Assembly: GCA_026004935.1 (NCBI GenBank)
Contig: BPKC01000001.1
Span: 930,001-994,000 of the forward strand
DNA from: Rhodothalassiaceae bacterium
Lineage (GTDB): Bacteria > Pseudomonadota > Alphaproteobacteria > Sphingomonadales > Rhodothalassiaceae
Length of the DNA: 64,000 nucleotides
Reading direction: 5' to 3'
Shown: piece after piece, positions 5,911 to 53,508 of the stretch
Numbering within the stretch: the stretch's first letter is position 1
Layout of the letters: each line of letters opens with the position of its first letter
The notes under the pieces: generated by a model
Databases searched by the model: none
What the model saw: the letters and a program-made list of their open reading frames with translations, nothing else
What the model was told of the DNA's origin: nothing
Position numbers and translations under genes: made by a program

Positions 5911-8900
5911 CTAGAAGTTGCCCGTCACCCCCAGGAAGAAGAAGGTGCCGACGAAGCCGGCCGGACGCGTGAGGCTGGCCAGATAGGGCTTGCGGCCCGC
6001 CAGGTTGTTCACGCCCGCATAGACCTGCAGGTTTTCCTTCACCTGATAGCGCACCGACACGTCATGAACGAAGGAGTTGCCGGTGTGCGTCGGGTCGACG
6101 AAGAGGGGATCGCTGATCAGATCCTCCACCTCGACGCCCGGCAGCAGCTGGCTCGACTCGAAGCGGGTCTGCCAGGCCACCGTCCACGGCCCGCGGTTCC
6201 AAGTGATGTCGAGATTGACCACCCAGTCCGGGAAGGCGAACTCGCCCTTCACCCGGTCCTTCTCGTCGGGGAAGTCCTGGAACTCGAAGTCGTTGCGCTT
6301 CAACAGATGCGAGCCGGTGACTCCGAAGGTCAGGCTGCCCGCGTTCTCGAAACCGAGATCCGCGAGCTCGACGAGATAGGTGGCGCCGAAGTCGATGCCC
6401 TGGGCGGTGAGCTTGGCCACGTTCTGCTCGCCCGAGCGGAAGAAGGTGATGAAGCCGAAGGTGGGATCACGATCGACAAGATCGCAGAACACGTTGTCCA
6501 GCGTCGGCGCATCCACGCAGTTCTCGATGATCCGCTCGGGATCCACGACGATGATCGCATCCTTGATGCGCACGTCATAGAAGTCCACGGTTGCCGTGAA
6601 CCCGGGCAGGAAGCGCGGCGTGATCACTGCGCCGATGGTCAGCGTGTCGGCGGTCTCTTCCTTCAGATCCGGATTGCCGCCGGCCCGCCCCGTGATGAAG
6701 GCGGAGACGAACTTCGTCGAGTCGAAGTCCGGCCCCACAAGCTGCAGGCAGTTCTTCTTGCGGAATTCCGTACCCGCATTGATCTGGTTGGGATTGCACG
6801 GGTCGAAGTCCGCCTGGATGAAGATCGGCTGGGGCGGCGAGAACAGCTCGTTGATGTTCGGCGCCCGGATCGCGCGACCATAGGTGCTGCGCAGGCGGAT
6901 GTCGTCGATCGGCCGCCATGCGCCGCCGAAGTTCCACGTCAGCGTCGAGCCCACTGTCGAATATTCTGAGAAGCGCACGGCGCCGTCGATCTCGAGCTCC
7001 TTGACGAAGGGCTTGTCGGCCAGCACCGGCAGACGCACCTCGCCGAACAGCTCCCAGACGTCGAAGCGGCCGCGCACCGGCTCGGAGCGGGTCGTCACCG
7101 TATTGAACAGCAGACCGCCCTTTTCGAAGTCGCTCGGATCGAAGTCGCTCTGCTCTTCCCGATACTCGAAGCCCGCGGCGAAGCCGACCGGGCCACCCGG
7201 AAGCGAGAAGTACTCCGTGGTGTCGCCGCTCAGGACCGCCGAGACCACCTGCTGCTTGATCTTGATGGTGTCGGTCGCGCGCACGAAGATGAAGTCGATG
7301 GCCTCCTGGCTGAAGTTGCCGAAGCCGAAGATGTTGAGCGGCTTGCACTGGCCGTCGCCGGGGCTGAAGCTGAGGAAGCCCTGGCGCACGTCCGGGAAGG
7401 GGGCGACCGGCGGGATCGCGTTCGGGTCGAGATCCGAACGGCAGACGATCTCGCCCGTATCCGGGTCCCGCACGGCGTCGATCGCGGCAAAGAAGCGGTC
7501 TTCGACGCGCGCCTTCAGGTTCGTGATGTTGGACTGCGTCTGGCCGTAGTTGAAGGAGATCTCGTAGTGCCAGCCGTTGTCGAAGTCGCCGTCGAAGCCG
7601 CTCACGATACGGAAGGTGTAGCGGTCGGTGCGCCCCTCGGAGGGGACATCCAGATTGTCGCGCGAGACCGTGATCCGCGGCGTGATCCCCTGATCGATCA
7701 GCGCATCGATCTGGGCGCGCAGGGCCGCCGGGATGAACGGATTGTCGAGCGAGATGGGGATGTCGTCATTGAAGCCGTTCACCTGATCGAGCGAATGGGT
7801 GTTCGTGTAGGCGAACTTTGATTCCGTGAAAAAGCGGATCCCCTTCGCGACCTCGTAGTGGAAGTTTCCGTTCACGACGATCCGGTTGATGTCGGGCTGG
7901 AGCCAGCCGACGTTCGGATTCACCGGGATCGCGTCACCGCCGATCGCGTTGAACAGATTCACGAAGATGTCGCCCGGATTGAACGGGCGCAGATTGCCGT
8001 TCTCGTCCACGATCTGGGCGACGGGGAAGCCGCCGACGGTGGCACCCGGAAACAGCAGGTTGATGAAGCCCGGATCGAAGAAGTCGTCGGCGTCCTGCAG
8101 CCAGATGATGCCGAACTTGGACGACACCGGCAGCGTCCGGTTGGGCGCGAAGGTGTTCGCCGCATCGGGGTTGACGCCCAGAAACTCCGCAAGCTCCGGT
8201 GAATTCGGCATGAAGGAGGCGAGCCCCCGGCCCGCGAACTTGCGGTCGGCGACATTGATGTGTTCGTTGTGGGTGTATTCGACGCTCACCACCGCATTGC
8301 CGCGGCCGTCGTCGAAGTTGAAGCCGCCGACGGCGCTCAGGAACCATTCCTCGCCGTCGCCATTGTCCGTGATGCCGCCCTGGCCACGATAGGTGAGGCC
8401 CTCGAAGTCATCCTTGAGGATGAAGTTGACGACGCCGCTCACACCATCCGCGCCGTAGACCGCGGATGCGCTGCCGGTCTGGACGTCGACACGCTCGATG
8501 AGGTCGACCGGGATGGTGGCGATATCCACCGCAGCGGTGCCAGAGACGCCCGCCACATGGCGCCGGCCGTTCACCAGCACCAGCGTCCGCTCCGTGCCGA
8601 GCCCGCGCAGGTTGAGCAAGCCGACGCCGGACGGTGCCGCGTTCTGATCAGACTGGTTGGCCGGCAGCGACTGATGCAGCGCCGGGATCTCACGCAGAAG
8701 CGTCGAGATGTCCGTCTCGCCGGAGGCCAGGATCTGCTCGGCGTCCACGATGGTCACGGGATTGGGCGCGGTCAGGTTGGGACGCGGAATGCGCGAGCCC
8801 GTGACCACGATCTCCTCGAACGAAGCCTCCTCCTCGCTCTGCTGCTGCGGGGCGGCTTGCGACTGCGGCTGCGTCTGCTCCGCGGTCTGGGCCAGCGCCG

Positions 8901-47898: not shown

Positions 47899-49467
47899 AT
47901 GTCCTTCGCCCATCTCGGCCTCAGCGACGAGCTGCTCAAGGCAATCGACGAGCTCGGCTACAAGGAGCCGACCCCGATCCAGCGCAAGGCGATCCCCGCG
48001 GTTCTGCAGGGGCGCGACGTCATCGGCATCGCCCAGACCGGTACCGGCAAGACGGCCGCCTTCGTGCTGCCGATGCTGGACATCCTTGCCACCGGCCGGG
48101 CGAAGGCGCGCATGCCGCGGTCGCTGATCCTCGAACCCACCCGCGAGCTCGCGCACCAGGTGGCGGAGAACTTCGAGCGCTACGGCAAGTATCACAAGCT
48201 GTCGATGGCGCTCCTGATCGGCGGCGTGTCCTTCTCCGAGCAGGAGGCGAAGCTCGAGCGCGGCGTCGACGTGCTGATCGCCACGCCCGGCCGGCTGCTC
48301 GACCATTTCGAGCGCGGCAAACTGCTGCTCACCGGCATCGAGATCGTCGTGGTCGACGAATGCGACCGCATGCTCGACATGGGCTTCATCCCCTCGATCG
48401 AGCGGATCATGACGCTGATGCCGCAGCGCCATCAGACCCTGTTCTTCTCGGCGACGCTGGCGCCGGAGATCAAGAAGCTGACCGACCGCTTCCTCGATGA
48501 CCCCAAGGTGATCGAGGTGGCCCCTCCGGCCTCTCCGGCCGAGACGGTGGACCAGTCGATCATCGTCGTCTCGCAGCGCGAGAAGACGAAGGCGCTGCGC
48601 AGCCTGCTCGAGAGCGAGGACATCGAGAACGCGATCGTCTTCTGCAACCGCAAGACCGATGTCCGCACCGTCTACCTCAGTCTCAGGCGCGCGAAGTATT
48701 CCGTCGGCCAGCTTCATGGCGACATGAGCCAGCCGGACCGGCTGGACACCCTGCAGCGCTTCCGCGACGGCGAGATCAAGATCCTCGTCGCCTCCGACGT
48801 GGCCGCCCGCGGCCTCGACATCGCCAAGGTCAGCCACGTCTTCAACTTCGACGTGCCTCAGAACGCCGAGGACTACATCCACCGCATCGGCCGCACGGGG
48901 CGCGCGGGCCGGCACGGCGTGGCGATCACCATCGCCACCCCCGAGGACGCGCGAGCGGTCGCCGCGATCGAGCGCCTCATCGGCCGCACGATCCCCGAGC
49001 GCACGCTCGAGGGCGTGAAGGTGCGGCCGCTCCCGCGCGAGGAGGCGGCCGAGGAAAGACCGCGCAAACGCCGCCGCAGACGCCGCAAGGACCGCGAGGA
49101 TCGCAAGGAAGCGGCGCCCGCCGGCCCCGGCGCGCAGGCCCCGGAGGCCGCCTCCCGCGAACATGCGCAAGCCGGCGGCGGGAGGACGACCGAAGAGAAG
49201 GCGGACGGCGAAGGCGCCGGCGCGCCGCCCGCCGGAGAGCGGCCCCGCAGGCGCCGCCGTCGGCGCCGCAGGCGGCGGGGCCGCGAGGGCGAGGCGCGGA
49301 AGGCGGAGGCGGTCACCGAAGCGCAGGCGAAACCGGCATCGTCGGCGGAGGATGCCCCCGAGGAAGAGCGCACGAAGCCGCCGCGGCTCGGCGATGCCTC
49401 TCCCGTGCCCGCCTTCCTGCGCGTTCCCGCGCGCCGGCGCCGGCGCCGGCGGCAGAAGGCCGAGTAG
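47899..49467 (+). CDS. rhlE: DEAD-box RNA helicase, RhlE-like, with a DECD box
   Basis: This 522-residue RNA helicase unwinds RNA duplexes in ribosome assembly or mRNA decay. In order: Q motif (YKEPTPIQRKAI), AQTGTGKT, PTRELA, the box VVVDECDRMLDMGF, FFSATLAPE, and HRIGRTGRAGR. The motif II box is DECD, not the usual DEAD. After about residue 380 a long, very basic tail follows, with runs of Arg (RKRRRRRRKDRED; RPRRRRRRRRRRRGRE) between acidic Ala/Glu stretches, likely an RNA-binding extension. A 136-base leader separates it from rsmA. Confidence 0.92.
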   Translation: MSFAHLGLSDELLKAIDELGYKEPTPIQRKAIPAVLQGRDVIGIAQTGTGKTAAFVLPMLDILATGRAKARMPRSLILEPTRELAHQVAENFERYGKYHKLSMALLIGGVSFSEQEAKLERGVDVLIATPGRLLDHFERGKLLLTGIEIVVVDECDRMLDMGFIPSIERIMTLMPQRHQTLFFSATLAPEIKKLTDRFLDDPKVIEVAPPASPAETVDQSIIVVSQREKTKALRSLLESEDIENAIVFCNRKTDVRTVYLSLRRAKYSVGQLHGDMSQPDRLDTLQRFRDGEIKILVASDVAARGLDIAKVSHVFNFDVPQNAEDYIHRIGRTGRAGRHGVAITIATPEDARAVAAIERLIGRTIPERTLEGVKVRPLPREEAAEERPRKRRRRRRKDREDRKEAAPAGPGAQAPEAASREHAQAGGGRTTEEKADGEGAGAPPAGERPRRRRRRRRRRRGREGEARKAEAVTEAQAKPASSAEDAPEEERTKPPRLGDASPVPAFLRVPARRRRRRRQKAE

Positions 49468-49598: not shown

Positions 49599-50999
49599 AT
49601 GACGAGGCAGCTTCAGCGGATCGCAGCGCGCTTGTTCAGGAACGCGCCGCGGCCGGCGATGGTCGCGGGAACTCTGGCGCTTGTCGCATCGCTTACTCCG
49701 TCCGCCCACGCCGCGCCCCAGGAGATCACGGAGCCCGCGGCGCCACCGGGCGAGCCGCTCGAGGTTCTTGTCTACCCGCGCAGCCTTCCGGAGAATCTTG
49801 CACGCTACGAAGAGGCGACGGCCGGACCGCTGACACCGGCCGAGGCGCCGGGGGCTGCCGCAGCGGCGCTCGCTGTGGCCGGCGACTTCTGGCACGCCGG
49901 CGATCTCGAGGGCGCCGTGATCCTTCTCTCTGAAGCCCTCGACCGCCTGCCGCCCGAGGACGGCTCCCCGCCGGTCGCGCTTGCGCGGGCCTCCCTCCAT
50001 CATGCGCTCGGCGAGATCTTCCGGACGACCGCGGAATTCAAGCGGATGAACCATGCCTATCTCATGGCTGCCGAGACGCTGCGCCGGGCCTTTGGTGACG
50101 AGCATCCGGCCGTCCTCAAGGCCGACACGCGCGCGGCCCGGGGGCTGCTCGAATCCGCCACCATCCGCGGCCGGTTCCAGACGGCGCAGGCTGCGCTGTC
50201 GACCAGACGGGACGCTCTCTTGCGCCTGCTGCGGCTGGAGAAGAGGGTTCGGGAAGTCCTCGGCGCAAATTCCTCCGAATACGCGATCGTGCGCCTCACC
50301 TACGCCCTGGGGCTGGCGATGCGCGGCTGGTCGCGCAAGGCGGACCAGATCGTCGCCGACCTCATCGAAGACCACAGCGCCCACATGGACGCGACGGCGT
50401 TGGCGGCGGCCTGGATAATTCGCGCCCGCATCGCCGCCTTTTTCAACAACGAGGAAAGAGCCGCCCGGTTTGCCGCCCGCGCGATGGCCCATGTGCGGGA
50501 GACCGAGGCTCCCGTGCGGGTCACGGACATCGCCGATGGCGAGTACGAGCGTGGCAGCCTCGGCGCGGGGCTGAGGCGGATATGGTCCCATCGCGGAACC
50601 GGGGACTTCAATCTCACCGCGCCTGGCGCGGCCGCTGAATCGCTGACCGGCGAGCGTGATCCCTGGGCGGGCAGCGTGGTCGAACTCAGTCTCTGCATCG
50701 CTCCCGACGGATCGGTGTCCACAGCCGAAATTACGGGATACAAGGGCAGCCGCGACTTTGCCCGCAGCATGCTCGAAGTGGTGCGCCACTACCGCTTTGC
50801 CGTGCCGGCGGCGCGCGCCGCCGAGAGCTGCAGCCCCGCGGCGCTGCGTCTCTTGGCCGGGGCGCCGACTGTCCAGCGGGGTCGCAGAATCGTCAAGAAT
50901 GGCGGTCCGCTTGCGGTCCGCCCCGTGGATATGCTCGGCGACGCGCCCTTCCGGGATGGCTATCTTGCCTGGCTGGACAGTGGTGCGGACGGACGTTAG
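49599..50999 (+). CDS. Exported protein with C-terminal TonB-C-like domain, paralogue 1
   Basis: This 466-residue protein has a signal peptide (to about residue 38, PSAHAAPQ). A helical middle part with TPR-like pairs (DLEGAVILLSEALDRLP, ALARASLHHALGEIFRTTA) leads to a C-terminal domain of about 90 residues: VELSLCIAPDGSVSTAEI and FARSMLEVVRHYRF resemble the TonB C-terminal fold. Two Cys (LCIAPDG and SCSP) match the paralogue next door, suggesting a disulfide. There is no membrane anchor beyond the signal peptide, so it cannot be a classical TonB. The role is unknown. Confidence 0.7.
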   Translation: MTRQLQRIAARLFRNAPRPAMVAGTLALVASLTPSAHAAPQEITEPAAPPGEPLEVLVYPRSLPENLARYEEATAGPLTPAEAPGAAAAALAVAGDFWHAGDLEGAVILLSEALDRLPPEDGSPPVALARASLHHALGEIFRTTAEFKRMNHAYLMAAETLRRAFGDEHPAVLKADTRAARGLLESATIRGRFQTAQAALSTRRDALLRLLRLEKRVREVLGANSSEYAIVRLTYALGLAMRGWSRKADQIVADLIEDHSAHMDATALAAAWIIRARIAAFFNNEERAARFAARAMAHVRETEAPVRVTDIADGEYERGSLGAGLRRIWSHRGTGDFNLTAPGAAAESLTGERDPWAGSVVELSLCIAPDGSVSTAEITGYKGSRDFARSMLEVVRHYRFAVPAARAAESCSPAALRLLAGAPTVQRGRRIVKNGGPLAVRPVDMLGDAPFRDGYLAWLDSGADGR

Positions 51000-51073
51000 C
51001 CTCGCGTAGTGATTGATGCCTGAGCCCGTCCGCGCGGACTTGCGGCCGGTCACGGGGCCGAGGGGAGAAGGAA

Positions 51074-52549
51074 ATGGGGGCGGGGATTCCGCGTGCCGAA
51101 GGCCTCCGCCGTGTTCGGCTGGTGCTGGCTCTCATCGCAGTGTCGGTGAGCGGCATTCATGCCGCGAGTGCCCAGGAGGCCGACGCGCCGGGAGAAAGAG
51201 GGCCGCTCAAGGTCGAGGTCTATCCCCTGCGCCTGCAGGAGAAGGTGCTGCTCTACGACGAATATCGTGAGAAGGTGCCGGCGGATCGGCGCGATCCGCT
51301 GCGGGAGGCGGAGCTGGCAACGGGCATCGCCGCCGACCTCCTCGCGACGGGGCACCGGGAGGAGGCCGCCGCCTTCCTGCGCAAGGCGCGCGACGAGCTC
51401 ACGCACAGCGCCGATCCGGTGCGCAATGCGCTCGCACGGGCCGAAATCGAGCATGCGCTGGGCCATCTGGCAGGGCAGGACGGTGCCTTCGAGGCCCGTA
51501 CGCGCCACCTGCTGGCGGCCGAGGCGGCGCTCAAGGAAGCTTTTCCGGATGATCATCCGATCGTTCTGGCCGCCCGCATCCGTGCGGCGAACGCCGAGTT
51601 CGAGCAGGGCTTTGCGCGCTTTATCGAAAGCGGACGCAAGGACATGGTCTTCGACGCCCTCCGGCGGCTCAGGCGGGTGGCGGAAACGGCCGGGCGCAAG
51701 TTCGGCCCCACAAGCCCGCAAGCCGTTCAGGCCCGCCTTGCTCTCGTCGTCGGCTCGGCCGTGCTCAACCGCAATCAGAGAGCCCTGCTCGAGATCGACG
51801 AGCTGGCCGCCCGGCTCGACGAGCGCGACGAGGAGCAGCGCTTTCTCAAGGCCGCCGCGCTGTCGCAGAAGGCGAAGCTGCTGAACTGGCTCGACAGGAA
51901 GGCCGAGGCCGCCGAGGCCGCCCGGCAGGCCATGGCCCTGCTCAAACCTGACGAAGTGGGCGGGCCCGTCGCGGTCGAGGAATTTACGCCGGAGGAATAC
52001 GGAAGCGGCGAGAAGCTTCCTGGACTCCGCCGGCGGGTGCGCATGCCCGGAGCGGGTGCGCCGGCCGGCGGCGTCTCGGTCCCGGGCGGGATTACGGGTG
52101 ATAACGACGTGGCCGGCGGCGGCGTGTCTCCGGCGACGGGCATTACGCCACGGGACTTTGCATCTCCCACCTCGGGAAGCTGGGTGCTGATCGGACTGTG
52201 CATCGACGCGGATGGCGGCGTCGCGCAGGCGGAAATGCTGGACCATGGCGGCCCCAGCCGGACCTGGGCCGAAAACGCCTTCAAGCTTGCCTCCCAGCGC
52301 CGCTATCTGCCGATGCCGGGGTTGAAGCCGGGCGAATGCGCGCCGCAGATGATCCGGCTGGCGGAGGTTTCCGAGCGCCAGGAGTTCCTGGGTTCGCGGA
52401 TCCGGCTGCGGTCGAAGGCGACCCGGATCGAGGTGGTGGACCTGGCAAAGGACAACCCGCTCTCGGGCGGCTATGTGGCCGCAGGTCTTGCGGCCGAGGA
52501 GGAGGCGCGCAAGGCGGGTGGCGAGCGGACTGAGACGTCGGGCTCCTGA
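51074..52549 (+). CDS. Exported protein with C-terminal TonB-C-like domain, paralogue 2
   Basis: This 491-residue protein lies 74 bases after paralogue 1 with the same architecture: signal peptide (to about residue 34), helical repeats, and a TonB-C-like end (VLIGLCIDADGGVAQAEML; CAPQMIRLAE). The mature N-terminus PLKVEVYPLRLQEKVLLYDE aligns with PLEVLVYPRSLPENLARYEE of paralogue 1. It differs by a Gly/Pro/Val-rich linker (about residues 315-350, [20 protein letters not shown]). GAGAAGGAA precedes the ATG. The two clearly arose by duplication and diverged widely. Confidence 0.7.
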   Translation: MGAGIPRAEGLRRVRLVLALIAVSVSGIHAASAQEADAPGERGPLKVEVYPLRLQEKVLLYDEYREKVPADRRDPLREAELATGIAADLLATGHREEAAAFLRKARDELTHSADPVRNALARAEIEHALGHLAGQDGAFEARTRHLLAAEAALKEAFPDDHPIVLAARIRAANAEFEQGFARFIESGRKDMVFDALRRLRRVAETAGRKFGPTSPQAVQARLALVVGSAVLNRNQRALLEIDELAARLDERDEEQRFLKAAALSQKAKLLNWLDRKAEAAEAARQAMALLKPDEVGGPVAVEEFTPEEYGSGEKLPGLRRRVRMPGAGAPAGGVSVPGGITGDNDVAGGGVSPATGITPRDFASPTSGSWVLIGLCIDADGGVAQAEMLDHGGPSRTWAENAFKLASQRRYLPMPGLKPGECAPQMIRLAEVSERQEFLGSRIRLRSKATRIEVVDLAKDNPLSGGYVAAGLAAEEEARKAGGERTETSGS

Positions 52550-52719: not shown

Positions 52720-53508
52720 ATGGCCGAAGCCGACGACATCCTGCTTGCCGCGCGTGACGGCGCGATCGTGACGCTCACCCTCAACCGGCCGGAGCGGCTG
52801 AACGCGCTGTCCGGGCCACTGCTCGCGCGCTTGGCGGACGGCCTCGCGCAGCTCAAGGAAGATGGCGGCGTGCGCGCGCTGATTCTCACCGGTGCAGGGC
52901 GCGGCTTTTCGTCCGGGGCCGATCTCATGGAAGGCGCGGGCGACGGTCCGCCGGATCTCGCGCGCACCCTGCGCGAGCGCTATGCGCCCGTGATCGAGGG
53001 GCTCGTCTCGCTGCCCTTTCCCACCATCGCCGCCGTCAACGGTCCGGCGGCCGGTGCCGGCATGAGTCTGGCGCTGGCCTGCGATTTCGTGATCGCGGCC
53101 GAAAGCGCCTATTTCCTGCAGGCCTTCGTGAACATCGGGCTGGTGCCGGACGCGGGCTCCACCTGGTTCCTACCGCGGCTAGTGGGGCCCGCGGCGGCGC
53201 GGCGGATGATGATGCTGGGCGAGAGGGTGCCGGCGGCCGCGGCCGCCGATCTCGGGCTCATTGCCGAGGTCGTGCCGGACGGCGAGCTCATGGCGCGCGC
53301 GCGCTCACTCGCCGAGCGGCTGGCCGCCGGACCGACGCGGGCGCTCGTCGGCATCAGACGCCTGCTGCAGGCGAGCTGGACCAATGATCTCCCCCAGCAG
53401 CTTTCCCTCGAGGCCGATATCCAGGGTGAAATGGGCCGCACCCGCGACTTCCTCGAGGGGGTCCAGGCCTTCGCCATGAAGCGTCCCGCCCGCTTCGAGG
53501 GCCGTTAA
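52720..53508 (+). CDS. Enoyl-CoA hydratase/isomerase, PaaG-like
   Basis: This crotonase-family enzyme of 262 residues has oxyanion-hole segments in GRGFSSGADLMEG and NGPAAGAGMSLALACD. The stretch AFVNIGLVPDAGSTWFLPRL and the C-terminal TRDFLEGVQAFAMKRPARF match PaaG-type ring-epoxide isomerases of phenylacetate breakdown better than beta-oxidation hydratases. No other paa gene is nearby, so a general fatty or aromatic acyl-CoA role is as likely. I chose the ATG at 52720; the upstream in-frame part is Ser/Arg-rich. Confidence 0.85.
   Translation: MAEADDILLAARDGAIVTLTLNRPERLNALSGPLLARLADGLAQLKEDGGVRALILTGAGRGFSSGADLMEGAGDGPPDLARTLRERYAPVIEGLVSLPFPTIAAVNGPAAGAGMSLALACDFVIAAESAYFLQAFVNIGLVPDAGSTWFLPRLVGPAAARRMMMLGERVPAAAAADLGLIAEVVPDGELMARARSLAERLAAGPTRALVGIRRLLQASWTNDLPQQLSLEADIQGEMGRTRDFLEGVQAFAMKRPARFEGR

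Follow-up and report, generated by a model that had tools for sequence, protein, structure and literature searches.

We describe here two adjacent genes of a Rhodothalassiaceae bacterium that very probably encode exported proteins, each joining a tetratricopeptide repeat (TPR) solenoid to a TonB-like C-terminal domain, and that belong to an unnamed protein family seen otherwise in one other taxonomic family, here called f6, of the order Sphingomonadales. The genes lie in a stretch of 64,000 nucleotides (assembly GCA_026004935.1, contig BPKC01000001.1, positions 930,001 to 994,000), called the window below, whose own numbering is used for the coordinates of the pair. In the usual view, TonB works from its place in the inner membrane and engages the outer-membrane receptors directly. 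The TonB-like end of the pair, together with the TonB box near the N-terminus of its nearest relatives, suggests a kind of periplasmic docking protein that has not been described. If this is true, a soluble family holding both halves of the TonB/TonB-box contact would be a third player in the Ton system of receptor-rich bacteria, and it would become testable how few TonB proteins serve many receptors. The lineage of the window would in turn illustrate how a docking pair changes after departing from the canonical motif.

A tandem pair of exported proteins

The features of the two genes are as follows, all on the + strand:

49599..50999, +, gene 1 (P0001), 466 residues: signal peptide, PLEVLVYP, TPR helices, TonB-C-like domain and tail
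49599..49712, +, presumed signal peptide of gene 1, residues 1-38 (SAHA/AP, by eye)
49755..49778, +, PLEVLVYP strand of gene 1, residues 53-60, aligned with the TonB box of relatives; no TonB box by scoring matrix
50652..50969, +, TonB-C-like domain and tail of gene 1, residues 352-457 (TonB_C 17.1 bits, E 0.0078, cut-off 24.6; alignment)
50694..50696, +, Cys366 of gene 1 (LCI, domain strand 1; residue position)
50829..50831, +, Cys411 of gene 1 (SCSP, start of strand 3; residue position)
51074..52549, +, gene 2 (P0002), 491 residues, with the plan of gene 1
51074..51172, +, presumed signal peptide of gene 2, residues 1-33 (AASA/QE, by eye)
51203..51226, +, PLKVEVYP strand of gene 2, residues 44-51, the most conserved 8-mer of the three-protein alignment
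51233..51958, +, TPR solenoid of gene 2, helices, residues 54-295 (model; structural matches)
52178..52369, +, TonB-C-like bb-a-b core of gene 2, residues 369-432 (model; structural matches)
52199..52201, +, Cys376 of gene 2 (LCI, strand 1; residue position)
52337..52339, +, Cys422 of gene 2 (ECAP, start of strand 3; residue position)
52391..52480, +, tail of gene 2, GSRIRLR...VVDLAKDNPL...GYVA, matching GTRIRRR...IEVMDLTPDN of relatives (alignment, hhalign)

Both reading frames are intact, lie on the same strand and are separated by 74 bases. Their products are paralogues, 30% identical over nearly their full length (E 1e-25), and genome searches found no third copy in the window genome. Each frame is exportable, with a signal-peptide-like start that ends, by eye, in AHA/AP (P0001) or ASA/QE (P0002), the slash marking the presumed cut, and the products are most likely soluble periplasmic proteins. 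Proline makes up 6.0% of P0001 and 5.5% of P0002.

An earlier note on this DNA, made from its letters alone, had recognized a tandem pair sharing PLxVxVYP and a C-terminal Cys pair, and the intact frames, the identity and the Cys alignment all bear this out. The motif is present in P0001, P0002 and P0003, a protein of the same genus, and occurs as PLHVRVYP in an N-terminal remnant from another genus (P0004). In the alignment of the first three proteins (A1), where 84 of 491 positions are invariant, it is the sole 8-residue stretch with six invariant positions. The note had set it at the mature N-terminus, which is too strict, since the motif begins some 10-15 residues past the presumed cut. 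Every full-length protein contains exactly two Cys, at aligned positions (366/411 in P0001, 376/422 in P0002 and 403/448 in P0003), and those of P0001 and P0002 all fall within the C-terminal domain. The idea that the copies, being far diverged, are likely to differ in role is not supported, as both copies retain every one of these features.

Relatives in the same order

In class-wide searches the best three or four candidates per genome were scored, and in the search of the order the best five; absences and copy counts are accordingly lower bounds. The other genome of the same genus (G031) has one homologue, P0003, at the same place and 37% identical to P0002; a scan of genome contigs with an alignment found a single record, RFIU01000153.1, whose protein is identical to that of G031 contig C272. 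P0001 falls outside the pair of P0002 and P0003 in a tree (support 88/79, long branches), so the duplication may predate the split within the genus, with loss in G031. Within the order, P0001 alone as query reached 4 of 296 genomes, and a profile search reached at least 49 of 296 at E<=0.001.

In one other taxonomic family of the order, f6, at least 28 genomes had matches at 1e-15 or better, yielding 32 proteins, and the sequence style of f6 (many receptors, AQ-DIVVTG starts) indicates that it is probably the Sphingomonadaceae. A profile built from these 32 relatives alone (A3) matches P0003 at 8.6e-29, P0002 at 7.8e-21 and P0001 at 9.1e-13, and matched none of 900 shuffled sequences at E<=10. 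In the window genome, where all 44 candidates were scored, it matches P0001 and P0002 only. Comparison of the window-type and f6 proteins by hhalign spans 319 columns with a probability of 95.5%, and a GSRIxxR...DL tail is common to both in the alignment. The f6 proteins thus share part order and full-length homology with the pair, and at least 3 of the 28 genomes (G064, G070 and G211) also have tandem copies.

The two groups also differ. The f6 proteins have a TonB box with a Cys pair of their own, C-x4-C, just behind it, which is missing from the N-terminus of the window proteins; these have PLxVxVYP there, and their two Cys sit instead in the TonB-like domain, an arrangement found in 3/3 window-type and 0/19 f6 proteins in an alignment of 22. 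Two f6 members (L044:27-1259, +, and L045:859-2085, -) have an additional Cys pair flanking the GTRIR tail motif.

Outside the order, class-wide searches gave C-terminal-domain or partial matches only. Nothing was found by a single-protein pattern scan of genome contigs, by profile A4 against viral contigs, or by one relative against plasmids. In a fourth genus, only the N-terminal remnant with its PLHVRVYP was seen, close to a contig end. At L012:3907-4230 (-) (G036:C65) an N-terminal family remnant terminates in a stop, a pseudogene or an assembly effect, and adjoins a gene that by eye looks like a fusion of cytochrome c with an FTR1-type iron permease.

A TonB box in the relatives and its absence from the pair

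At the place of PLxVxVYP, f6 proteins have DIVVTG, EIVVTG, TIVVTA and similar stretches. A position-specific scoring matrix (PSSM) for such boxes was built from the receptors of the analysed genomes, not from the Escherichia coli consensus. Three f6 genomes hold 31, 60 and 50 plug matches, and 29 of the 30 examined among these 141 are preceded by a TonB box. In a first matrix some boxes were off by one residue, and the analysis was repeated with 51 hand-aligned boxes, two TITVIS strings being omitted. One f6 protein (L048) had no start assigned and was excluded, leaving 31 of 32. In all 31, the highest-scoring TonB-box position falls close to the N-terminus (positions 16-76). With the hand-aligned matrix, 28/31 score at least 10 bits, against 6/422 background open reading frames, a set that includes spurious frames and in which at least one of the six is itself a receptor (L013), and against 64/3100 shuffled sequences.

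Judged by sequence, the f6 relatives therefore combine both halves of the TonB/TonB-box contact, the box as well as the TonB-type domain, in a single exported, soluble TPR protein. In the literature collection searched, no account of soluble TPR proteins bearing TonB boxes was recognized. A table in a paper on gene transfer agents lists a Sphingomonadales 'tonB' and a 'TPR' family, either of which may or may not be the present one (PMC9765227).

P0001 and P0002 have no N-terminal TonB-box site by the same PSSM. Their genome has such boxes on its receptors: of its 27 plug matches, some of them split, 24 are preceded by a box of (E)EIVVT(A/G) type by pattern. The remaining three are L073, L075 and L076, and L075 has EEIVISA, which the pattern missed. 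One plug match lies in the window itself (8431-8775, -, L055), with the box FEEIVVTGSRI.

Predicted fold

A full-length model of P0002, built on the three-row alignment with a mean predicted local distance difference test score (pLDDT) of 60.6, contains a TPR solenoid at residues 54-295; among solved structures, it is matched best by the TPR proteins BtubC, LGN and kinesin light chain (Z 16-19). The helical repeats of the earlier note are thus TPRs in the model and by structural matches; Pfam TPR matches of P0003 are under the cut-off. No beta-propeller is present in the full-length model. Since the rows of the VIA re-alignment of this model were filled by one domain and showed no TonB row, the C-terminal domain (residues 360-469) was folded alone. 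This gave a mean pLDDT of 72.1, with 80-91 in the core, and a strand-strand-helix-strand (bb-a-b) topology. Upon re-alignment by VIA, the top nine rows were all TonB, FusB or TolA C-terminal domains (Z 5.0-6.8, root-mean-square deviation 2.3-3.7, 64-78 residues), and Foldseek probabilities were 0.35-0.93 for most TonB/TolA rows against <=0.25 for unrelated ones. By sequence, the f6 profile A3 has ten TonB chains among its 25 matches in the PDB (E 0.008-0.2), all at the C-terminal domain. P0001 itself has only a Pfam TonB_C match of 17.1 bits, below the cut-off of 24.6.

A TonB/TolA fold for this domain is, on the model and the profile, well supported but not proven. The proposal of a TonB-C-like domain gains from both, and comparison with TonB C-terminal domains did not turn up an unrelated fold. 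The model places Cys376 within strand 1 and Cys422 where strand 3 begins, and a cross-strand disulfide between these strands is plausible.

Genomic setting

The genes flanking the pair, which lie outside the system, are the following:

47899..49467, +, DEAD-box helicase, RhlE-like (Pfam DEAD 4.4e-51)
52720..53508, +, enoyl-CoA hydratase (Pfam ECH_1 1.2e-64)

We take these, from their Pfam domains, to be rhlE and echA. In 4/4 genomes of two sister genera (G006, G013, G020 and G026), the helicase and enoyl-CoA hydratase genes are directly adjacent, with no family frame between them, so the pair was most likely added here in the window genus. Insertion at rhlE/echA within that genus, leaving one copy in G031 and two in the window genome, is the most likely history. 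G+C content over the pair is 0.68-0.69 (surroundings about 0.67-0.75) and speaks neither for nor against horizontal acquisition. A promoter and terminator scan at the pair found no sigma-70-like site and three terminator-like sites, against 1.6 expected, an outcome that is not informative. No TonB receptors are co-located with the pair at this locus.

A canonical Ton cluster is found elsewhere (L001, G000:C1:875120-878350), in the order exbD-exbD-tonB followed by a TPR gene; by eye, its TonB has no His in the N-terminal helix. Two further proteins of 162 and 147 residues (L002:1495-1983, -, and L003:1300-1743, +) have a signal-peptide-like start and little beyond TonB_C, and read as a soluble type with a TonB domain only. 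At L002:600-3234 there are dense, short, repeated frame fragments (TRRLDRRVQ / LDPPVKPA) that look like dispersed intergenic repeats.

Possible modes of action

The reading we favour, at a little short of an even chance, is that the two proteins are periplasmic docking scaffolds working by beta-strand augmentation. The TPR solenoid would bind a partner protein, and the TonB/TolA-fold domain would offer an edge strand to which short strands of other proteins add, as between TonB and the TonB box or between TolA and the TolB N-terminus. The pair derives from a family whose other members have a TonB box near the mature N-terminus, the box having turned into PLxVxVYP in the window genus. This strand would then act as a donor and dock not on TonB but on a TonB-like domain, either its own or that of the tandem partner, and the Cys pair would staple strands 1 and 3 of the acceptor domain. 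The f6 relatives, for their part, can probably be gripped by the cell's own TonB through the box, as TolB is by TolA, and may also grip a box through their own TonB-type domain.

Several observations weigh against the favoured reading. Support for the fold is modest, coming from a three-row alignment with Z <8, and Foldseek E-values for the P0002 domain are 0.2 or worse, none being <=0.001. P0002 has no Pfam TonB_C match, and the three-protein profile A1 matches no TonB chain in a search of the PDB. The N-terminal 52 residues of the full P0002 model are below pLDDT 50, so docking of PLxVxVYP is not predicted by it. The exbB/exbD and tonB genes do not adjoin the pair.

Somewhat unlikely, in our estimate, is a soluble adaptor of the Ton system, whose TonB-like domain would take hold of receptor TonB boxes and relay or buffer the action of TonB. 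The 24 of 27 plug matches with boxes, the modelled fold and the TonB box of the f6 relatives all speak for it. For this pair, its canonical version is weakened by the missing box of the window genus. The Cys pair may also staple the edge of strand 3, and the genes lie beside neither receptors nor exbBD. The at least 49 of 296 sampled genomes with family matches are also few for such a role. A further and more novel reading, which we judge unlikely, is that the family forms a self-complementary Ton relay, in which TonB pulls the protein while it holds a receptor or copies link head to tail, and that this was rewired in the window genus into a private pair of strand and domain, PLxVxVYP and the disulfide-stapled domain, across tandem paralogues.

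Slightly less probable again is a scaffold with no link to Ton, the TonB-like fold being reused in envelope assembly in a role like that of CpoB, a soluble TPR protein of Tol-Pal that binds TolA according to the excerpted text of PMC8928145. The lack of a TonB box, the conserved PLxVxVYP strand, the new Cys pair and the position between housekeeping genes suit this proposal, but the box in 31/31 f6 relatives suggests that the ancestor was linked to Ton.

A periplasmic brake or decoy, which would tune import by setting its TonB-like domain or its N-terminal strand in competition with TonB or with receptor boxes, is quite improbable: it would need high abundance, and the window copies lack the box. 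In its favour, the f6 relatives display a TonB box on a soluble protein, and a pentapeptide with the TonB-box consensus reportedly inhibits TonB-dependent processes in vivo (Tuckman and Osburne 1992, from the title).

Comparison with known systems

With TonB itself the pair shares the bb-a-b fold of the C-terminal domain (PF03544) in the model, but its Pfam TonB_C matches are below the cut-off or missing. The TonB energy transducer has an N-terminal membrane anchor with an SHLS motif, as given in the excerpt of PMC12204202, and by eye no such motif (S-x-H-x-L-x-S) is found in the N-termini of P0001, P0002 and P0003. This absence and the AxA cut sites, likewise read by eye, favour a signal peptide with no TonB-type anchor, as had been proposed, although the SHLS test is weak because the genome's own TonB also lacks the motif. 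Where TonB has a proline-rich or extended periplasmic spacer the pair has a TPR solenoid, and where TonB is linked to exbB/exbD the pair has helicase and enoyl-CoA hydratase neighbours. As these defining features of TonB are absent, we reject the view that the pair is TonB itself. The earlier interpretation is thus supported in part: the TonB-C-like domain and the lack of an anchor gain support, and different roles for the copies do not.

The domain architecture as such is already known from other lineages, for exported TPR proteins ending in TonB_C exist in G028 (P0005, 68.4 bits) and G468 (the L113 protein, 31.8 bits). P0005 has no N-terminal TonB box by PSSM, and only its C-terminal domain aligns with A1. 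What is new, in our view, is the TonB-box family and its rewired branch in the window genus. An exported-looking protein at L018:460-1869 (-) (G385:C16) carries a TonB-C-like repeat twice in its N-terminal half, with helices after it, a domain order that is reversed and duplicated.

A TPR protein, TtpD2, is required by the TonB2 system of Vibrio vulnificus. Unlike the window pair, which is unlinked to tonB, it is encoded in the tonB2 operon, and no TonB-like domain is described for it in the excerpt of PMC6957404; in the window genome, the TtpD2-like placement is held by the other TPR gene, after tonB. The closest working analogy for the f6 relatives is TolB of the Tol-Pal system. TonB binds receptor TonB boxes, TolA binds TolB at its N-terminus, and in either contact a strand is added to one and the same type of domain (PMC8928145, excerpt). 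TolB is itself soluble and periplasmic, and it is its N-terminal strand that the TonB-fold domain grips by beta augmentation. TolB differs in having a beta-propeller, with TPRs and a TonB-like domain not among the domains named for it in that excerpt.

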